From Actinobaculum massiliense (GTDB taxonomy: Bacteria; Actinomycetota; Actinomycetes; Actinomycetales; Actinomycetaceae), in contig NZ_LN881717.1 in assembly GCF_001457435.1 (NCBI RefSeq), forward strand, positions 815,896-879,895: a DNA stretch of 64,000 nt, given 5' to 3'. The first letter of the stretch is position 1; the number at the start of each line of letters is the position of its first letter. A program made the translations under genes and the position numbers. This document shows positions 43,488 to 51,514 of this stretch, piece after piece. A model generated the notes under the pieces. The model was not told where the DNA came from and did no database searches. It saw only the letters and a list, made by a program, of their open reading frames with translations.

Positions 43488-44570
43488 TCAGCGGCGCGGA
43501 CCGCGCTCGAGTTCGGCCGTGTCCACGTACCACGGTCCGTGGCGTAAATGGTCCATGCTGAGTTCTTCCGAAAAAATACGCGCTAGCTCCCGCGTTTCGG
43601 CGGAGCCGGTCAGACCGGTGGCCTCGGGGAGATCAACCTCGAGCGATGCCGCCAGCAAGCGCACAATATCCGCGGGCGTCCAGCCGAAACTAGCAAGCGC
43701 GCGCATGGTCACGGCGCCATCGCGCTTAGCCAACCGGCGCCCTTCCAAATTGAAGACCATCGGCACATGGAAATATTGCGGGGTGGCGAACCCCAGGAGG
43801 TGCTGCAAATGCACCTGGCGCGGAGTGGATGCCAGCAAATCCGCCCCGCGGGTCACCTCACGAATGTCTGCTTCAGCATCATCCACGACGGAGACGAAAT
43901 TATAGGAAAACGCGCCATCCCCGCGACGAATCACAAAGTCGTCCACCACGCCGATGTAGTTACCGAGAATTTCGTCCCGAATCTCCAGCTCACGCACACT
44001 TGAGCGTAGCCGCAAAGCCGGGCCGCGATTCATTCCGGCCAGCTTGGCTCGCCCTTGGGCGCGTTGTTCTCCGCTCAGATCACGGCAGGTGCCGGGATAA
44101 ACGCCCGGGGTGCCATTGGGCGCGCTCGCCGCCTCAGCAAGATCCTTGCGGGTGCAGTAGCACTCGTAGAGCAAACCCGCCTCACGGAGCCTTTCGAACT
44201 CGCACTCATAGAGATTCCCGCGTTCGCTTTGGTACTGCACCGGCTCATTCCAGGTAAGGCCAATAGCCGCCAGATCAGCCAGTTGAGAGCGGGCATATTC
44301 AGACCGTGAACGCTCGACGTCCAGGTCCTCAACGCGCATAACGAAACCGCGCCCGTGGCGCTGAGCAAACGCCCAGGCCAGCAAAGCCGTGCGCAGGTTT
44401 CCAAGGTGAAAATCCCCGGTGGGGCTCGGCGCATACCGTCCATTCCCGGCAACCAGCGAACCGCTCGGCGCATTTTCTCCCTGAAGCTCCGGCGCTTCGT
44501 CCGTATCACTCACGGCCCGCGTAGCCTCCTCGGCTATCTCACTCGCCGCCCGCATAGCCGCCTCGTCCAT
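43488..44570 (-). CDS. gluQ: Glutamyl-Q tRNA(Asp) synthetase
   Basis: 360 aa from ATG 44570, 16 nt below the pepC stop. GluRS catalytic core without anticodon-binding domain: GRYAPSPTGDFHLGNLRTALLAW (HLGN for HIGH), Zn site CYCTRKDL...YPGTCR, and LAKRDGA for KMSKS. Such proteins attach glutamate to queuosine-34 of tRNA(Asp). The first 45 residues are an acidic/Ala-rich extension (AASEIAEEATRAVSDTDEAP). Directly downstream of pepC paralogue 1. Confidence 0.93.
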   Translation of the reverse strand: MDEAAMRAASEIAEEATRAVSDTDEAPELQGENAPSGSLVAGNGRYAPSPTGDFHLGNLRTALLAWAFAQRHGRGFVMRVEDLDVERSRSEYARSQLADLAAIGLTWNEPVQYQSERGNLYECEFERLREAGLLYECYCTRKDLAEAASAPNGTPGVYPGTCRDLSGEQRAQGRAKLAGMNRGPALRLRSSVRELEIRDEILGNYIGVVDDFVIRRGDGAFSYNFVSVVDDAEADIREVTRGADLLASTPRQVHLQHLLGFATPQYFHVPMVFNLEGRRLAKRDGAVTMRALASFGWTPADIVRLLAASLEVDLPEATGLTGSAETRELARIFSEELSMDHLRHGPWYVDTAELERGPRR

Positions 44571-44586: not shown

Positions 44587-45978
44587 CTACTGCCCCACCG
44601 GATCCCATACCGGCAAGACTGTTTCCGGAGCCTCGGGAGCAAAAGCCTCCGCAACCTCACGCGGCACCGACTCGCGCGGCACGGTGATGCCAAAAACGTA
44701 CTGGTCAAACCAGGAATCATTCATAGTGTAGAAGCCAGCGTCGCCGCGATCTGTGCCCCAGGAGTTTTCAATCCGCCAGCGCCGCGGGCGAAGCGCAGTC
44801 TGCGTGTTTTCCATACGCCCGTCCGAACTCGTCCCCCCGCCGTCTTTCGCGGAGACTTCTCGATCCCCAGCACCGGCGTCCACCAGATCCACCCCGGTAA
44901 ACGCCATAATGTGGGTGAGGCGAGCCTCGTGCAACTCGAGCATCTGCGCCTTGGTCAGCGCCGTATCAATGCCGTAGGTGGAATCGTATGCGTAGAGATT
45001 CGCGTCCCAAATACCACGTTTGCCGTCGAGCTGGTGCTTCACATCGCAGGCCATCCACACCGGGCGACCCGCCTGAAGCTCGCGAATCGCGACCTCTTTA
45101 AGCGTCTGAACCGGAACATTGACGAATACAAAATCGCGCCCTGCGATATTCTGCTTGCCGTCCACCCGGTAACGCACTCCGCGCGGGTGTCGCGGATCGT
45201 CCACAATTTGCACGTAATCTCCGAGATCACCGAGGTATTTTTCGGCAAACTGGCGCGGCGTGAACAGGCCCTCACGGTGGAAGGCGTGATCGTCATCTTC
45301 CCACTGCCAGATAAACTCGCGGGGTGGGGCACCCAGGTGAATCGCCAGCACGCGGTAGGTTTGCCGTAGCGCCTCCGCGCGAATCGCCTCACGCGCGCTC
45401 CCCGACGCGGCAGCGCGAATGTCCCGCGCCGCACGCCTCATGAGCACCCTGAGCGTCTCGTTCATTGCGTCCGTGTTCGACGACGAATCTGTTTCCGGCA
45501 TGGCGTAATCGGGCACCGCGCCGTATTTACGCACCAGGCCTTCGAAGAAATACCAGTATCCGCCATCCCAAATCGGTTCGCGCAACCAGAAGACGACCTC
45601 GCGATCATCGGCGGGGCGCTCGGCCAAGCGATCCATATTCCCCAAGAAAGTATTAGCTTTCTCGAGTTTGTCGAAGAACTGCAGATAAACGTGCGAAAAC
45701 TGGAAGTTCTTCACCCCAATTTCCTTTGCCACCCGCCCGCGCAGCACGTTGTAGCTGGCGAACATCCAGCACCGTCCAGATTTCTTCTGGTTCGTCGCTT
45801 CTCCGGTGGGGATCTTAATGGAGACGCTAGGGTCTATCGCGTTGATAATCTCGCGATCTTCAGCGACCTTATTAATCGGCGTTTGCGTCACCGCGTTCTG
45901 CACCAGGCGCGCGGCGCGATCCGCCGCGAAATCCCCGGCCCACTCCGCGATTTCTTCTTCCGTTACGCTCTTTTGCAT
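44587..45978 (-). CDS. pepC: Aminopeptidase C (C1B), paralogue 1
   Basis: 463 aa, bleomycin-hydrolase family. Oxyanion Gln and catalytic Cys in NQKKSGRCWMF, His in LTHIMAFTGVD, Asn in WRIENSWGTD. A cytosolic hexameric exo-peptidase that trims N-terminal residues. Compared with the two paralogues nearby (46131 and 49096) it has an extra segment of about 25 residues between His and Asn (AGAGDREVSAKDGGGTSSDGR...). Upstream sequence GGAGGCGC precedes the ATG. Followed by gluQ. Confidence 0.95.
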   Translation of the reverse strand: MQKSVTEEEIAEWAGDFAADRAARLVQNAVTQTPINKVAEDREIINAIDPSVSIKIPTGEATNQKKSGRCWMFASYNVLRGRVAKEIGVKNFQFSHVYLQFFDKLEKANTFLGNMDRLAERPADDREVVFWLREPIWDGGYWYFFEGLVRKYGAVPDYAMPETDSSSNTDAMNETLRVLMRRAARDIRAAASGSAREAIRAEALRQTYRVLAIHLGAPPREFIWQWEDDDHAFHREGLFTPRQFAEKYLGDLGDYVQIVDDPRHPRGVRYRVDGKQNIAGRDFVFVNVPVQTLKEVAIRELQAGRPVWMACDVKHQLDGKRGIWDANLYAYDSTYGIDTALTKAQMLELHEARLTHIMAFTGVDLVDAGAGDREVSAKDGGGTSSDGRMENTQTALRPRRWRIENSWGTDRGDAGFYTMNDSWFDQYVFGITVPRESVPREVAEAFAPEAPETVLPVWDPVGQ

Positions 45979-46130
45979 TCCCAGCGCCTCCTTCTATTAG
46001 CGCGCCCGTGCCGCACCTTCACCAAGCCGTGGCCTAGCGACCCGTGCCGCACCTTCACGAAACCGAGCACTGGCGCACCATGTGCCGAGCCCAACTAGGC
46101 CAATTTTTAACACACCACGACGCGTCCCGA

Positions 46131-47576
46131 CTAAGCCAAAATATCCCAGGCCGGTAGCAACCGCGCGTCGGGATCATCAATGCCCGCACGCCACTGCTCA
46201 GGAACGGCGTCGTTCTTCACCACGACAACGTAGGTATGCGCCTCCACCCACTCATCCGAGACGGTGACGAAGCCCTTGTCTCCGTTATCTTCTCCCCAAG
46301 AATTCTCAATCCGCCAGCGCAGTGGCTGGCCGGATTCGTCCAGGTCAACGCCGGTAAATGCCATGGCATGCGTGGGCATATAACCGAGCGTGGAGAGCCC
46401 GGCGAGGTTCTCCAGGCTGGTGTCCACGCCGTAAATACCCGCCTCGTCGAAAAGCCCCGGCGTACCGATTCCCTTCTTACGGTCCATCTCCTTGCTCACG
46501 TCGCATGCCATCCACACCGGCTCGCCAGCTCGTAGCGTGGCGAGCGTTGCTTCGCGTAGCGTGTCCATCGACACAACATGGAAAACCTGCGGGTATCCCG
46601 CCATACTCTCGCGCCGGTCGACGGCGTAGGCCTGGCCGACTTCCAAGCGCGGATCAACAAGGAGCGTCACGTATTCGCCAATATCGGGAACGGCCTTTTG
46701 CGCGAACTCCTGCGGGGTTAGCACGCCCTCACGATGGAATTCCCCGTCCTTGTCTTCCCACTGCCACATGAACTGCTGGGGCGGGGTGCCCAGGTGGATC
46801 CGTAGGATCCGATACACATCGGCGAGTGCCGCTTCACGGATATCACCCCGCGCCTCCGGCTGCGCGTGATGGATTTCCCAGGCGGCGCGGCGAAGACGGC
46901 GGCAAATCACGCTATCCATTTCAGTGGTGTTCGGGCTCGACTCGGTTTCCGGCATGGCGTACTTCGGAACAGCGCCGTACTTTTGCACCAGCGCGGCGAA
47001 GGACTCCCACCAGCCGCCGTCGTAAACAGGGTTTTCCAAAATCGTGGCCACAACCCGCGCGGCGCGCTCGATCCAGCTATCCGTGGCGCAATTGCCGCTC
47101 GCGTTATCGGCGCCCGGCTCAATTTCGTTGGCCGACTTCCCGGCGAATTTCGCTCCGACGTCGGACACCAAAAACTCACCGGGGAAAGGTGCGTCCGCGA
47201 GGTCGCAAATATTGCGCAGGAAGACGTTCGCCTTTTCGAGAAGGTCGAAGAACTGCAGGTAGGCGAAGGAAAACTCAAATTTCTTCAGGCCGGTTTCCTT
47301 GAAAACTTCGGGGCGACCGGCCGCGTTATAACCCGCGAACATCCAGCAACGGCCGGACTTTTCCTGGTTCGTCACGTCCCAGGCGTCGATTTTTAGGGAG
47401 AAACTGGCGCCGCTGAGCGCGGTGGCCTTGGCGTGGTCCTGAGCCACATCGGCAAGCGCATTCTGGGTGAGCGCGTTCTGGGCAATTCGCGCCTGCGGAT
47501 CCGCGGAAAATGCCTCCGCCCACGCCTCAAGTTGCGTGCTCGTAATTGCGGTGTTTGCGCTCTGCTGGGCGCCCAT
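46131..47576 (-). CDS. pepC: Aminopeptidase C (C1B), paralogue 2
   Basis: 481 aa. Catalytic set NQEKSGRCWMF, THAMAFTGVD, WRIENSWGED. It differs from its neighbours by Asn-Leu-rich N-terminus (LTQNALADVAQDHAKATALS), a roughly 40-residue insert after NICDLADAPFP (VGAKFAGKSANEIEPGADNAS), and by loss of a conserved hydrophobic end. Same strand as paralogue 1, 152 nt upstream. All active-site residues are kept, so it should be active, perhaps with altered specificity. Confidence 0.93.
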   Translation of the reverse strand: MGAQQSANTAITSTQLEAWAEAFSADPQARIAQNALTQNALADVAQDHAKATALSGASFSLKIDAWDVTNQEKSGRCWMFAGYNAAGRPEVFKETGLKKFEFSFAYLQFFDLLEKANVFLRNICDLADAPFPGEFLVSDVGAKFAGKSANEIEPGADNASGNCATDSWIERAARVVATILENPVYDGGWWESFAALVQKYGAVPKYAMPETESSPNTTEMDSVICRRLRRAAWEIHHAQPEARGDIREAALADVYRILRIHLGTPPQQFMWQWEDKDGEFHREGVLTPQEFAQKAVPDIGEYVTLLVDPRLEVGQAYAVDRRESMAGYPQVFHVVSMDTLREATLATLRAGEPVWMACDVSKEMDRKKGIGTPGLFDEAGIYGVDTSLENLAGLSTLGYMPTHAMAFTGVDLDESGQPLRWRIENSWGEDNGDKGFVTVSDEWVEAHTYVVVVKNDAVPEQWRAGIDDPDARLLPAWDILA

Positions 47577-47976
47577 ATATGCCTCCGTTTACTAGTTCTT
47601 CGCCGACGCCGCGCGACTCAATCGCTCTGCCGCGCGGTTCTTGAAACGCACTGGCATGGTACCGCGCAGCTCCGACAGCCTAAAGCGAATCGTCTGGATC
47701 GCGCGCACTCTCACGCTTTCGCGAAGCACTCCGCTGCCGCTTTGGCGCCGCGATCCGCTACCGGATTGGCTCTGCACTCGCCCGCCCGGTCTTTCAGGCC
47801 GCCCGCCTGGTTCTCGGTTTTTTCAGAGAATAATTTCCTCAACTTGATCCCAACACAGGGCGCGCCTTCCGCAATTCCATACGTGCCAGCCGCACATTGA
47901 GGCATTTCCACTCCAGCCGTGGCCGAGCGGCGGCGTCGGGAAACAAACGAAGGCGCGCGCCGCGAGGGAGGTTTGG
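47577..47976. other. 400-nt divergent intergenic region
   Basis: Between pepC paralogue 2 (minus) and the epimerase (plus). The middle has an AT-rich patch near 47815-47840 (TTTTTTCAGAGAATAATTTCC). I found no convincing gene, hairpin or operator. It presumably holds both promoters. Confidence 0.5.
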
Positions 47977-48978
47977 ATGCAAGACGCAGAGATAACGCAA
48001 CACAAGTGGATCGTGACCGGCACGGAGGGGTTCCTCGGCAACACAATCGTGCGGCGCCTCTTCGAAGCGGGGGCCCGCGTGCGCGCGGGGGTTTACCCGG
48101 ACCGCGAGCCGGAATCGCTCGCGGGCATCGAGTGCGAAAAGTTCTACGCAGACATCACCGATCCCGCAGACGTTGCGCGGCTGTTCGACGGCGCCGGCGC
48201 AGATACGTTCATTATCCACTGCGCGGGCATTGTTTCCATTGCCAATCAGGTGCGCCGCGAGGTGCGCTCAGTCAATGTTGGCGGAACCCGAAACATTGTT
48301 TACGCCTGCCGTGAGCACAGCGTAGCGCGACTGGTGTACACCAGTAGCGTCCACGCTTTGCCCGAGGATGACGGCATTATCACCGAAACGAAGGACATTA
48401 CGCCCGCGCAAGTCGTGGGTGAATACGCCAAGACAAAGGCCGAGGGCACGCGGCTGGTGCTCGATGCGGAGAACATTGATCGCGTCGTTGTTCACCCCTC
48501 CGGGATCCTTGGCCCGGGTGATTATGGGGACGGTCATCTCACTCGCCTCATTCGCGACCTTATGAACGGCCGGCTCACCTCGATTGTGAACGGCGGTTAC
48601 GACTTTGCGGATGTGCGGGATATTGCGGATGCGTGCATTGCCGCCGCCTACCGCGGGCGCAACGGAGAAAACTACATCCTCAACGGCACCGAAACTTCGA
48701 TTCGCGAGATGAGTGACCTCGTGTGCAAGACAATTGGCAGGAAGCGCACTCCCACCGTTTTGCCCACCTGGTTTGCCAAGCTCACCGCCCCCGCGGCTGA
48801 GCTCTGGTACAAACTGCGCGGAACCGCGCCGCTTTACACCCGCTATTCGCTCTATACCCTGCAGGCCCCGGCACAGTTCAGCCATGCCAAAGCCTCAGCT
48901 GAGCTCGGCTACAGCACGCGCCCGGTGGAAGAAACCATTGTGGATACCGTGCGTTGGATCCAAAAGCACCCGCAATAG
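47977..48978 (+). CDS. NAD-dependent epimerase/dehydratase-family protein
   Basis: 333 aa, extended SDR. NAD-binding TGTEGFLGN, ADITDPADV, CAGIVSI, VYTSSVHALP, and YAKTKAEG (YxxxK). Resembles 3-beta-HSD/dihydroflavonol-reductase-like proteins; no sugar-pathway partner is nearby, so the substrate is unknown. GGGAGG precedes ATG 47977. Ends at a strong terminator shared with the converging pepC paralogue 3. Insertion of this gene between pepC copies separates paralogues 2 and 3. Confidence 0.9.
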   Translation: MQDAEITQHKWIVTGTEGFLGNTIVRRLFEAGARVRAGVYPDREPESLAGIECEKFYADITDPADVARLFDGAGADTFIIHCAGIVSIANQVRREVRSVNVGGTRNIVYACREHSVARLVYTSSVHALPEDDGIITETKDITPAQVVGEYAKTKAEGTRLVLDAENIDRVVVHPSGILGPGDYGDGHLTRLIRDLMNGRLTSIVNGGYDFADVRDIADACIAAAYRGRNGENYILNGTETSIREMSDLVCKTIGRKRTPTVLPTWFAKLTAPAAELWYKLRGTAPLYTRYSLYTLQAPAQFSHAKASAELGYSTRPVEETIVDTVRWIQKHPQ

Positions 48979-49034
48979 GCCGCGATTACCTCCGGGGCGC
49001 GAAGTATTCTGCGGAACACGACGCCGTAATGAAT

Positions 49035-49076
49035 ACGCCGGTGGGGCGGGCCGCAAGCAACCCGCCCCACCGGCGT
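49035..49076. terminator. Strong terminator after epimerase
   Basis: Perfect 16-bp stem ACGCCGGTGGGGCGGG / CCCGCCCCACCGGCGT with a 10-nt loop; plus-strand tail TTGTTTTAG. Also faces the 3' end of pepC paralogue 3. Confidence 0.92.
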
Positions 49077-49095
49077 TTGTTTTAGTCGCGGAACC

Positions 49096-50406
49096 TTAGG
49101 CCAGCGATCCCATTGGGTCCCAGGCCGGGAGCACCGCCGGCTCGGAATCGAGGGCCGCCAAGTATTCCTCGGGCAGGCGGCTCTTGGGCACAGCAATCTC
49201 GAAGACGTGCTGGTCGAACCAGGAATCGTTCATGGTCCAGAAACCCTTATCGCCCATGCCGTCGCCCCACGAGTTTTCGATGCGCCAGCGGCGCGGGGAG
49301 CCGGCCTCGTCCAGATCCACGCCGGTGAACACCATAGCGTGCGTCATCATGGATTCGCCAAAGCGTAGCTCATCGGCCTTGGACATCTCGAGGTCAATTC
49401 CGTAGGTACCCTCGTAGTCGAAGAGCTTGCCGTCCCAGATACCGCGGTCGCGATCGGACTGCTTGCCGGTATCGCAGCCCATCCACACCGGGTGGCCTTC
49501 CTTGAGCTGCTCAATCACGGCGGTGCGAATAACCTCAATCGGAACGTTCAGGTACGTCACTGGCTTGGCGCCCACCACATTGCCCAGACGGTCCACTGTG
49601 TAGAGCTTGCCGTATTCGTTGCGCGGATCGTTGACCACGCACACCAGTTCGCTCAGATCTGGCAGGTACTTATGCGCGAACTCGAGCGGCGTCATCTCGC
49701 CCTCGCGGTGGAATTCTCCGTCCTTGTTCTCCCACTGCCACACGAACTTCTGGGGCGGGGTGCCCAGGTGAATCGCCAGCACGCGGTAAATCTGCTCCAT
49801 CACCGAAGCGCGCACGGCATCGCGCTCGGCCGCCTCGGCGGCGCGAATATCACGCGCTCCGCGGCGCAGCAGCATCTCCAGGGTGCGGTTCATCGCCGAG
49901 GTATTGGAGCTCGACTCGGTTTCCGGCATGGCGTACTTGGGCACCACGCCGTACTTTTCCACCAGCGCCACGAACATATTCCACTGCCCGCCGTCGCCAA
50001 TCGGATCGGAAAGCAGGTAGTGGACGGTGCGGTTATCCACATCCTCCTCGGCCAGGTCGATCATCGAGGAAAGGAAGTAGTTCGCCTTCTCCAATTTGTC
50101 CCAGAAATGCTGGTAAGCCTGCGAGAACTCGAACTTCTCCAGCCCAGTCTCTTCGTAAACAGCGTTCTTGAGGCTATTGAGCCCCGAGAAAAGCCAGCAC
50201 CGCCCCGATTTCTTCTGGTTGGTAATCGGCCACTTGTCCACCTTGACAGACATCGTGGGGTCGATCGAGTTAATGACCTCGCGATCCTCGGCAACCTTAG
50301 TAATCGGCGTTTGCGTCACCGCGTTCTGCGCGATGCGCGCGGCCGGATCCGCCTCGAACTTCTCCGCAAAATTCTGAATGACTTCCGGGCTAAGAGCCTG
50401 CGCCAT
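49096..50406 (-). CDS. pepC: Aminopeptidase C (C1B), paralogue 3
   Basis: 436 aa from ATG 50406 (GGAAGGTGG upstream; the frame open to 50484 is not used). Catalytic NQKKSGRCWLF, MTHAMVFTGVD and WRIENSWGDG. The most canonical and shortest of the three PepC copies, without either insert, so likely the ancestral housekeeping copy. Strong conserved blocks with the others include VPKYAMPETESSSNT and AIHLGTPPQKFVWQWENKDG. Divergent from the HNH nuclease gene. Confidence 0.95.
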   Translation of the reverse strand: MAQALSPEVIQNFAEKFEADPAARIAQNAVTQTPITKVAEDREVINSIDPTMSVKVDKWPITNQKKSGRCWLFSGLNSLKNAVYEETGLEKFEFSQAYQHFWDKLEKANYFLSSMIDLAEEDVDNRTVHYLLSDPIGDGGQWNMFVALVEKYGVVPKYAMPETESSSNTSAMNRTLEMLLRRGARDIRAAEAAERDAVRASVMEQIYRVLAIHLGTPPQKFVWQWENKDGEFHREGEMTPLEFAHKYLPDLSELVCVVNDPRNEYGKLYTVDRLGNVVGAKPVTYLNVPIEVIRTAVIEQLKEGHPVWMGCDTGKQSDRDRGIWDGKLFDYEGTYGIDLEMSKADELRFGESMMTHAMVFTGVDLDEAGSPRRWRIENSWGDGMGDKGFWTMNDSWFDQHVFEIAVPKSRLPEEYLAALDSEPAVLPAWDPMGSLA

Positions 50407-50635
50407 GGTCCACCTTCCGTGTTTTGGTTTTATTACCGACGACGCCGCCGCTTCGCGGTGCCCGGCCGCGGCTGGGCCAGGCAATGCGCGCGGAGGCGCA
50501 AACAGTGGCCAGTCTAATCCGTTGCGCCGCGCCGGGCCGGAACTGGGCTTTGATAGTGAGCGATCTCAGCTTCTGCCCCCGCGCACGCCACCAACCCCCG
50601 CGCGCGAACGGCCAAGAAATCGATATCCTGGTGCA

Positions 50636-51514
50636 ATGGCGAAAACTTTCCGCGGTAACTCTGATGGCCCTTCCGGATATCGATCGGGGAAATCCACTTC
50701 GGGCGGGACCGGAGCCTCGGCAAACTCCGGCAACAATCGCCCCAAATGGATGCAACCGCCCTCGCGCGAACAGCAACGGCGGACCCAGCGACGCAACCGG
50801 ATCATCATGTTCGTCGTGGTCGCCGCAATATTCGTCTACCTCATTATCGATTCGGCTAACTGGGATAAACAGGCCGAGCAATTCGAGCAACCCCAAGACT
50901 ATGTTTCCGCCTCCGCACCCTCCGGCGAAGCTCTTTCCGCGGCCAAAAACCTGCGGGAAACCGAACCGACGAACGGGGTGGGATACCGGCGTCAGGAATT
51001 CGGATTCACCGACGATGGTTGGCCGGATCTGGACGGCGACGATTGCAATGAGCGCAATGAAATCCTGGCGCGCGACCTCGCGGGAACCACCTTCTGGGAA
51101 GGCGGGAAGAATCCGCCGCATTGCGTGGTAGGAACCGGAGTGCTTCACGATCCGTATTCGGGCCGGGAGGTGGATTTTGACCGCGCCGCCGATCCGGACG
51201 CGGTGCAGATCGACCACGTGGTGGCACTCTATGATGCTTGGCAAAAAGGCGCCGACGATTGGCAACCGGCCAAGCGCTTCGCCTTCGCCACTGATCCGTT
51301 GAATTTACTCGCCGTGTCCGAGGCCGAAAACGACGATAAGGGCCATCAGGATGCGTCCCAATGGCTCCCGTCCAATGAGAATTTCCGTTGCGAGTACGTG
51401 GCGCGCCAAGTCGGGGTGAAGCAAAAGTACGACATCGGTGCCAGCGCCGCGGAAAAGCAAGCCATGGTTTCCGTGCTCGAGGCCTGCCCGACCCAGGAAC
51501 TCCCCGCCCATTAG
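50636..51514 (+). CDS. Membrane-anchored HNH nuclease-family protein (DUF1524)
   Basis: 292 aa from ATG 50636. Basic, Ser/Gly/Asn-rich cytoplasmic N-terminus, one helix (IIMFVVVAAIFVYLII), then an exported HNH/DUF1524 domain: DCNERNEILARDLA, DFDRAADPDAVQIDHVVALYDAWQKGA, FATDPLNLLAVSEAENDDKGHQDASQWLP and FRCEYVARQVGVKQKY. The His-Val-Val and Asn/Lys-Gly motifs are the metal and catalytic sites. Likely extracellular DNA or RNA degradation for nutrition. Cysteines at DDCNE, PHCVV and FRCEY may be disulfide-bonded. Confidence 0.88.
   Translation: MAKTFRGNSDGPSGYRSGKSTSGGTGASANSGNNRPKWMQPPSREQQRRTQRRNRIIMFVVVAAIFVYLIIDSANWDKQAEQFEQPQDYVSASAPSGEALSAAKNLRETEPTNGVGYRRQEFGFTDDGWPDLDGDDCNERNEILARDLAGTTFWEGGKNPPHCVVGTGVLHDPYSGREVDFDRAADPDAVQIDHVVALYDAWQKGADDWQPAKRFAFATDPLNLLAVSEAENDDKGHQDASQWLPSNENFRCEYVARQVGVKQKYDIGASAAEKQAMVSVLEACPTQELPAH

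Follow-up and report, generated by a model that had tools for sequence, protein, structure and literature searches.

The window analysed here is a stretch of 64,000 nucleotides from Actinobaculum massiliense (contig NZ_LN881717.1). Three uninterrupted open reading frames on its reverse strand, P1 (44587–45978, 463 aa), P2 (46131–47576, 481 aa) and P3 (49096–50406, 436 aa), are complete genes for C1B cysteine peptidases. In a profile search with a cut-off of 22 bits they matched PF03051 with scores of 411.7, 369.7 and 548.4 bits, respectively; none of the three matched an NCBIfam model. The start of P3 is most likely the ATG at 50406 and not the TTG at 50484, since a GGAAGG is seen by eye just upstream of that ATG. 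P1 directly precedes gluQRS, the gene of tRNA glutamyl-Q(34) synthetase (43488..44570, reverse strand; GluQRS by NCBIfam), which has a listed reading frame opening at 44720 and an apparent start at ATG 44570, just past the stop of P1. An NAD-dependent epimerase/SDR gene (47977..48978, forward strand) lies between P2 and P3 and stands outside the peptidase set.

Across the genome, which comprises 2.07 Mb in 4 contigs at a completeness of 98.28%, the profile search gave five PF03051 matches, all of them pieces of P1, P2 or P3, and no further gene of this family was found. A promoter scan returned one site where 2.1 were expected. Between 43400 and 51600 of the window there are 20 terminator-like sites, compared with 9.6 expected from shuffles. 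An open reading frame with a GmrSD C-terminal nuclease domain (50378–51514) is located beside P3 on the other strand, and GmrSD-like frames were also noticed by eye near pepC in L035 (7186–8133) and L036 (15952–16812).

Catalytic residues, inserts and predicted folds

An alignment of P1, P2 and P3 shows no variation at the catalytic Gln, Cys, His and Asn. The original prediction of three C1 paralogues at 44587, 46131 and 49096 that keep Gln-Cys, His and Asn is thus confirmed by the reading frames, the PF03051 scores and the alignment. In a wider set of 118 rows, reduced to 81 long-tail and 28 short-tail rows by leaving out nine odd ones, Gln64, Cys70, His356 and Asn378 (P3 numbering) are kept in every row of both groups (81/81 and 28/28).

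Judged by its sequence, P3 is a canonical PepC/bleomycin-hydrolase-like aminopeptidase C (C1B, PF03051), and at this level the family profile, the catalytic residues (C70/H356/N378), the DGGQW motif and the WDPMGSLA tail are all alike. Its sequence matches include human bleomycin hydrolase (7v5l, E 1.3e-116) and 4k7c (E 1.9e-115). Structures of such enzymes include 4k7c (named Aminopeptidase C and titled PepW), 1cb5 and 1gcb. P1 and P2 resemble these enzymes in family profile and catalytic residues, and P2 also in predicted fold, but they lack the full tail and the glutamine of DGGQW. Aminopeptidase C proper is a self-compartmentalised hexamer; here monomer models were predicted for P2 (pLDDT 89.5) and P3 (pLDDT 93.0). 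The model of P2 shows a bleomycin hydrolase fold, superposing on 4k7c with Z 50.9 (432 aligned residues, 2.1 Å) and on human bleomycin hydrolase 1cb5 with Z 48.9; in the PDB ranking of this model papain-fold cathepsins reach a Z of only about 15.

The three-way alignment places an insert of 40 residues in P2 (roughly residues 131–173) and one of 27 residues in P1 (371–397), so that the two unique inserts of the original prediction do exist. Their supposed position near the active-site cleft is not supported for P1, in which the insert falls in the turn between the His- and Asn-carrying strands (356–365 and 371–377 in the P3 model) and presumably lies at the strand end remote from the active site. 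In P2 the insert has pLDDT values of 76, 59, 51 and 61 in successive 10-residue blocks over 131–170, and with such low confidence the model gives it no firm place in the fold. The P2 insert is likely to be a secondary feature, given this low confidence and the shorter version of it that is present in the counterpart from Actinobaculum suis. The second copy of G031, a member of another genus, carries a long insert of its own between two helices (L036 8399–9829; about 46 alignment columns gapped in P3), at a site different from those in P1 and P2.

The C-terminal tail and the residue after DGG

P3 ends in WDPMGSLA, the tail of most relatives examined. The canonical C-terminal arm, WDPMG[SAT]LA, is absent in P1, which ends in WDPVGQ, and in P2, which ends in WDILA; relative to P3 the two tails are shorter by two and three residues, respectively, a key feature that is absent from the original prediction. 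The motif that reads DGGQW in P3 is DGGYW in P1 and DGGWW in P2.

A search of 200 Actinomycetaceae genomes yielded 78 with a PF03051 match and 83 complete genes that were read, six fragments from G028, G130, G167 and G169 being dropped from the counts. The tail is WDPMG[SAT]LA, whether or not it is extended beyond this motif, in 55 of the 83 genes and of another kind in 28; three Bacilli-like genes (G015, G087, G103) and the long-branch G056 are counted in the second group. Gln follows DGG in all 55 genes with the canonical tail and in none of the 28 others, where W (11 genes), Y (9), D (4), F (3) and M (1) are found instead. Both tail kinds occur together in eight genomes, and 19 genomes carry only the other kind. 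All 13 complete PF03051 genes of genus group g3, which has 16 genomes with a match, three of them giving fragments only, are tail-less and single. The PF03051 gene of G028 (L041 5309–6791) is split over two overlapping frames and may be broken or the result of a sequencing error; more incomplete or split genes of the family were observed in g3, in L161 (G167), L154 (G130) and L163 (G169).

In the 118-row set Gln141 is found in 81/81 long-tail rows versus 1/28 short-tail rows. Other positions that differ between the tail groups (P3 numbering) include M144, with the same counts of 81/81 and 1/28, G275, Y285, N287, G310 and M354. The best 80 of 542 relatives, an uneven sample, are represented by 82 rows (L056–L134), of which 74 have the canonical tail and eight do not, one of the latter being L118 at a contig end. 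The link between tail and Gln is weaker across phyla. The residue after DGG is E, E and Q in the short forms of Corynebacterium, and Gln is kept in short- or odd-tailed genes of L116, L124, L. curvatus and L. crispatus. Of the four Lactobacillus short forms, two keep Gln. A phylogeny-aware test of this link gave a median p of 0.5 with three independent pairs on firm branches, and with only three such pairs it cannot reach significance.

Origin and distribution of the copies

The identities between the three proteins are 47% (P1–P2), 55% (P1–P3) and 49% (P2–P3). P3 and the first A. suis copy form a pair (84%), as do P2 and the second one (64%). In a 76-row tree P1, P2, the second A. suis copy (G001b) and the second copy of G031 (G031b) form one clade (100/97), and the members from A. 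suis and G031 are the copies adjacent to gluQRS. The split between P1/P2 and P3 looks older than the genus, since G031, from another genus, also has a related second copy at this locus. The word triplication, used in the original prediction, is therefore misleading; a recent event of that kind is ruled out by identities of 47–55% and by the fact that another genus has a related second copy. The copies do not appear to be unrelated transfers either, and a horizontal gain of P1 and P2 was rejected: the GC contents of P1, P2 and P3 (0.595, 0.609 and 0.603) are near that of the window (0.607), and the locus is common to relatives.

A gluQRS/GltX motif near pepC was seen in 8 of 40 stretches of at least 8 kb, namely the window, L035 and L055 (A. 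suis), L036 (G031), L039 and L057 (G016), L049 (G025) and L052 (G057), the identity of gluQRS outside the window resting on this motif. It directly follows the canonical pepC in G016, G025 and G057 and the short-tail copy in the window, A. suis and G031. We infer that a pepC-gluQRS locus underwent local tandem duplication, which gave rise to the set, and that the copy beside gluQRS diverged.

How often the tail was lost in the Actinobacteria depends on the tree. All actinobacterial short forms fall in one clade in a quick tree of 118 rows (28 short rows, 99 SH-aLRT) and in a 77-row tree (26 short rows, 75/99); the 76-row tree places P1, P2, G001b and G031b with long-tail Actinomycetaceae (80/97). 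AU tests accommodate both a single clade of actinobacterial short forms (p 0.506) and the quartet with the long-tail clade (p 0.546), so that the loss occurred once or perhaps twice. Within the quartet P1 can be grouped with P2 and G001b (p 0.261) or with G031b (p 0.339), and P1 might also be an offshoot of P3, the grouping of P1 with P3 and G001a having a p-AU of 0.194 at an lnL 14.85 lower.

Short-tail C1 peptidases are likewise found as C1B paralogues in Lactobacillus, where they end in WDALQ, WDSMA, WDTLY or WDNIG, and L. curvatus has a tandem pair of a short and a long form. The genes used here are annotated only as C1 family peptidases, with no PepE or PepG name, and probably belong to the PepE/PepG group; PepE and PepG of lactic acid bacteria, members of the same C1B family, are called endopeptidases in passages of PMC2827410. 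The four Lactobacillus/Latilactobacillus short-tail genes fall among the Bacilli rows, beside the long-tail copy of L. curvatus (86/92). A common short-tail clade of 22 actinobacterial and four Lactobacillus rows was rejected (lnL 122 lower, p-AU 3.97e-5), and on these trees the short tails arose separately in Lactobacillus and in Actinobacteria.

Seven loci (the window, L035, L036, L058, L106, L116 and L182) harbour a long-tail copy with a short-tail copy nearby. Five other genomes (G015, G016, G089, G189 and G193) have both kinds at separate places, and closeness is therefore not general. A class-wide search found matches at E≤0.001 in 7 of 394 genomes, the window genome included, six of the seven lying over the profile cut-off; the family is therefore sparse outside the Actinomycetaceae in that sample. 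A third, Bacilli-like C1B group was noticed in genus g15 (L012 of G087, L020 of G103 and L037 of G015), with DGGD and tails of WTTFNPL(L) or WSSFDPL. It clusters with a gene on an Enterococcus faecium plasmid (98/81), which suggests transfer. When P2 and a Bacilli-like copy were searched against plasmids, each matched 16 records, all of less than 60% identity.

Putative functions of the three peptidases

In PepC/Gal6 the C-terminal arm sits in the non-primed part of the cleft and holds the free amino end of the substrate, and only N-terminal residues are removed. The shortened tails of P1 and P2 would leave the cleft open at the non-primed side, as in papain, and longer peptides could then span it, to be cleaved at internal bonds or in short blocks. 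The residue after DGG, which we take to be the equivalent of papain Tyr67, is aromatic in P1 and P2 and in place of Gln may supply an S2–S3 wall where the tail is lost. From these features it seems fairly probable that P3 is a broad aminopeptidase and that P1 and P2 are open-cleft oligo- or endopeptidases. Since P1 and P2 lack the tail reported to restrict PepC to end-trimming, internal cleavage is predicted for both; P1 may retain partial exopeptidase activity because WDPVG is retained and no more than two residues are missing. In the cytosol, P1 and P2 would cut imported oligopeptides into smaller pieces, which P3 would trim to amino acids. That the extra copies are specialised, as originally proposed, agrees with the loss of the tail, the substitutions in the cleft, the purifying selection and the conservation of the catalytic residues, but calling all three aminopeptidases is doubtful when two of them are without the tail reported to set that specificity.

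Passages of PMC3519881 that cite Mata (1999) describe the deletion of four C-terminal residues as turning PepC from an aminopeptidase into an oligopeptidase. As described there, this laboratory change is of the same kind and at the same end of the protein as that in P1 and P2; the engineered PepC is minus four residues, whereas P1 and P2 are natural, are minus two to three and have cleft substitutions in addition.

P1 and P2 could still be exopeptidases with an altered step, in which the shorter arm allows the release of dipeptides or tripeptides and not of single residues. Only two to three tail residues are missing, and a C1 relative from Parabacteroides distasonis, titled a processive dipeptidyl aminopeptidase (5wdk, 5wdl; Pd_dinase in 6w4n), aligns to the P2 model with a Z of about 32. 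However, this alignment covers P2 residues 52–469 at about 20% identity, and the published PepC deletion is titled, as given in PMC3519881, as yielding an oligopeptidase; we regard an altered step as rather unlikely. Long branches, lineage-specific inserts and PF03051 scores below that of P3 might also be expected if P1 and P2 were redundant or decaying copies whose short tails are tolerated drift with no new specificity. This is very unlikely, as P1, P2 and their relatives retain open frames and the catalytic residues, and dN is well below dS between P2 and its A. suis counterpart (0.282 and 1.77, the latter near saturation). Moreover, in 19 Actinomycetaceae genomes (16 if G087, G103 and the odd G056 are set aside) the sole complete PF03051 gene has a non-canonical tail, and the form is therefore maintained on its own.

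The original prediction favoured three aminopeptidases acting on host peptides or collagen fragments or inactivating bleomycin-like drugs. The family does include bleomycin hydrolase, and in passages of PMC6314084 on the proteome of A. massiliense catheter biofilms (data set PXD011327) PepC1, which those passages do not assign to any one copy, is, with PepN, M13 and M20 peptidases, moderately to highly abundant in vivo. Nevertheless, the tail is shortened in two of the three copies, the neighbouring genes examined have no drug or collagen link, and no signal peptide is seen by eye at the start of P1, P2 or P3, which makes a direct attack on host collagen unlikely. Nothing was found in support of the use of collagen or of drug inactivation, and the proposal as a whole appears quite improbable. 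Zinc is said in the same source to be the cofactor of PepC1, which is at odds with a C1B cysteine peptidase.

The preferred reading remains that of one aminopeptidase and two oligo- or endopeptidases. Oligopeptide transporters are among the proteins listed in the biofilm proteome, which, as far as it is presented in those passages of PMC6314084, fits the cytosolic digestion of imported oligopeptides rather than direct collagen attack. On a wider scale, the evidence is about evenly balanced as to whether PepC has repeatedly switched in nature from aminopeptidase to oligo- or endopeptidase by losing its C-terminal arm, with one or more such events in Lactobacillus, one or perhaps two in Actinobacteria, and several tail losses beside a retained long-tail copy. 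Among the titles and abstract openings listed in our literature searches none concerned short-tail PepC in Actinobacteria, weak evidence given that most subscription journals were outside its reach. If such a switch exists, the published laboratory deletion would have arisen more than once in evolution as well, and the bacteria of g3 would be without an ordinary aminopeptidase C of the PF03051 family. Aminopeptidase C and its putative oligopeptidase relatives match the same Pfam family, and a sequence rule combining tail length and the residue after DGG would then separate them. It would also suggest how Actinobaculum digests imported oligopeptides.
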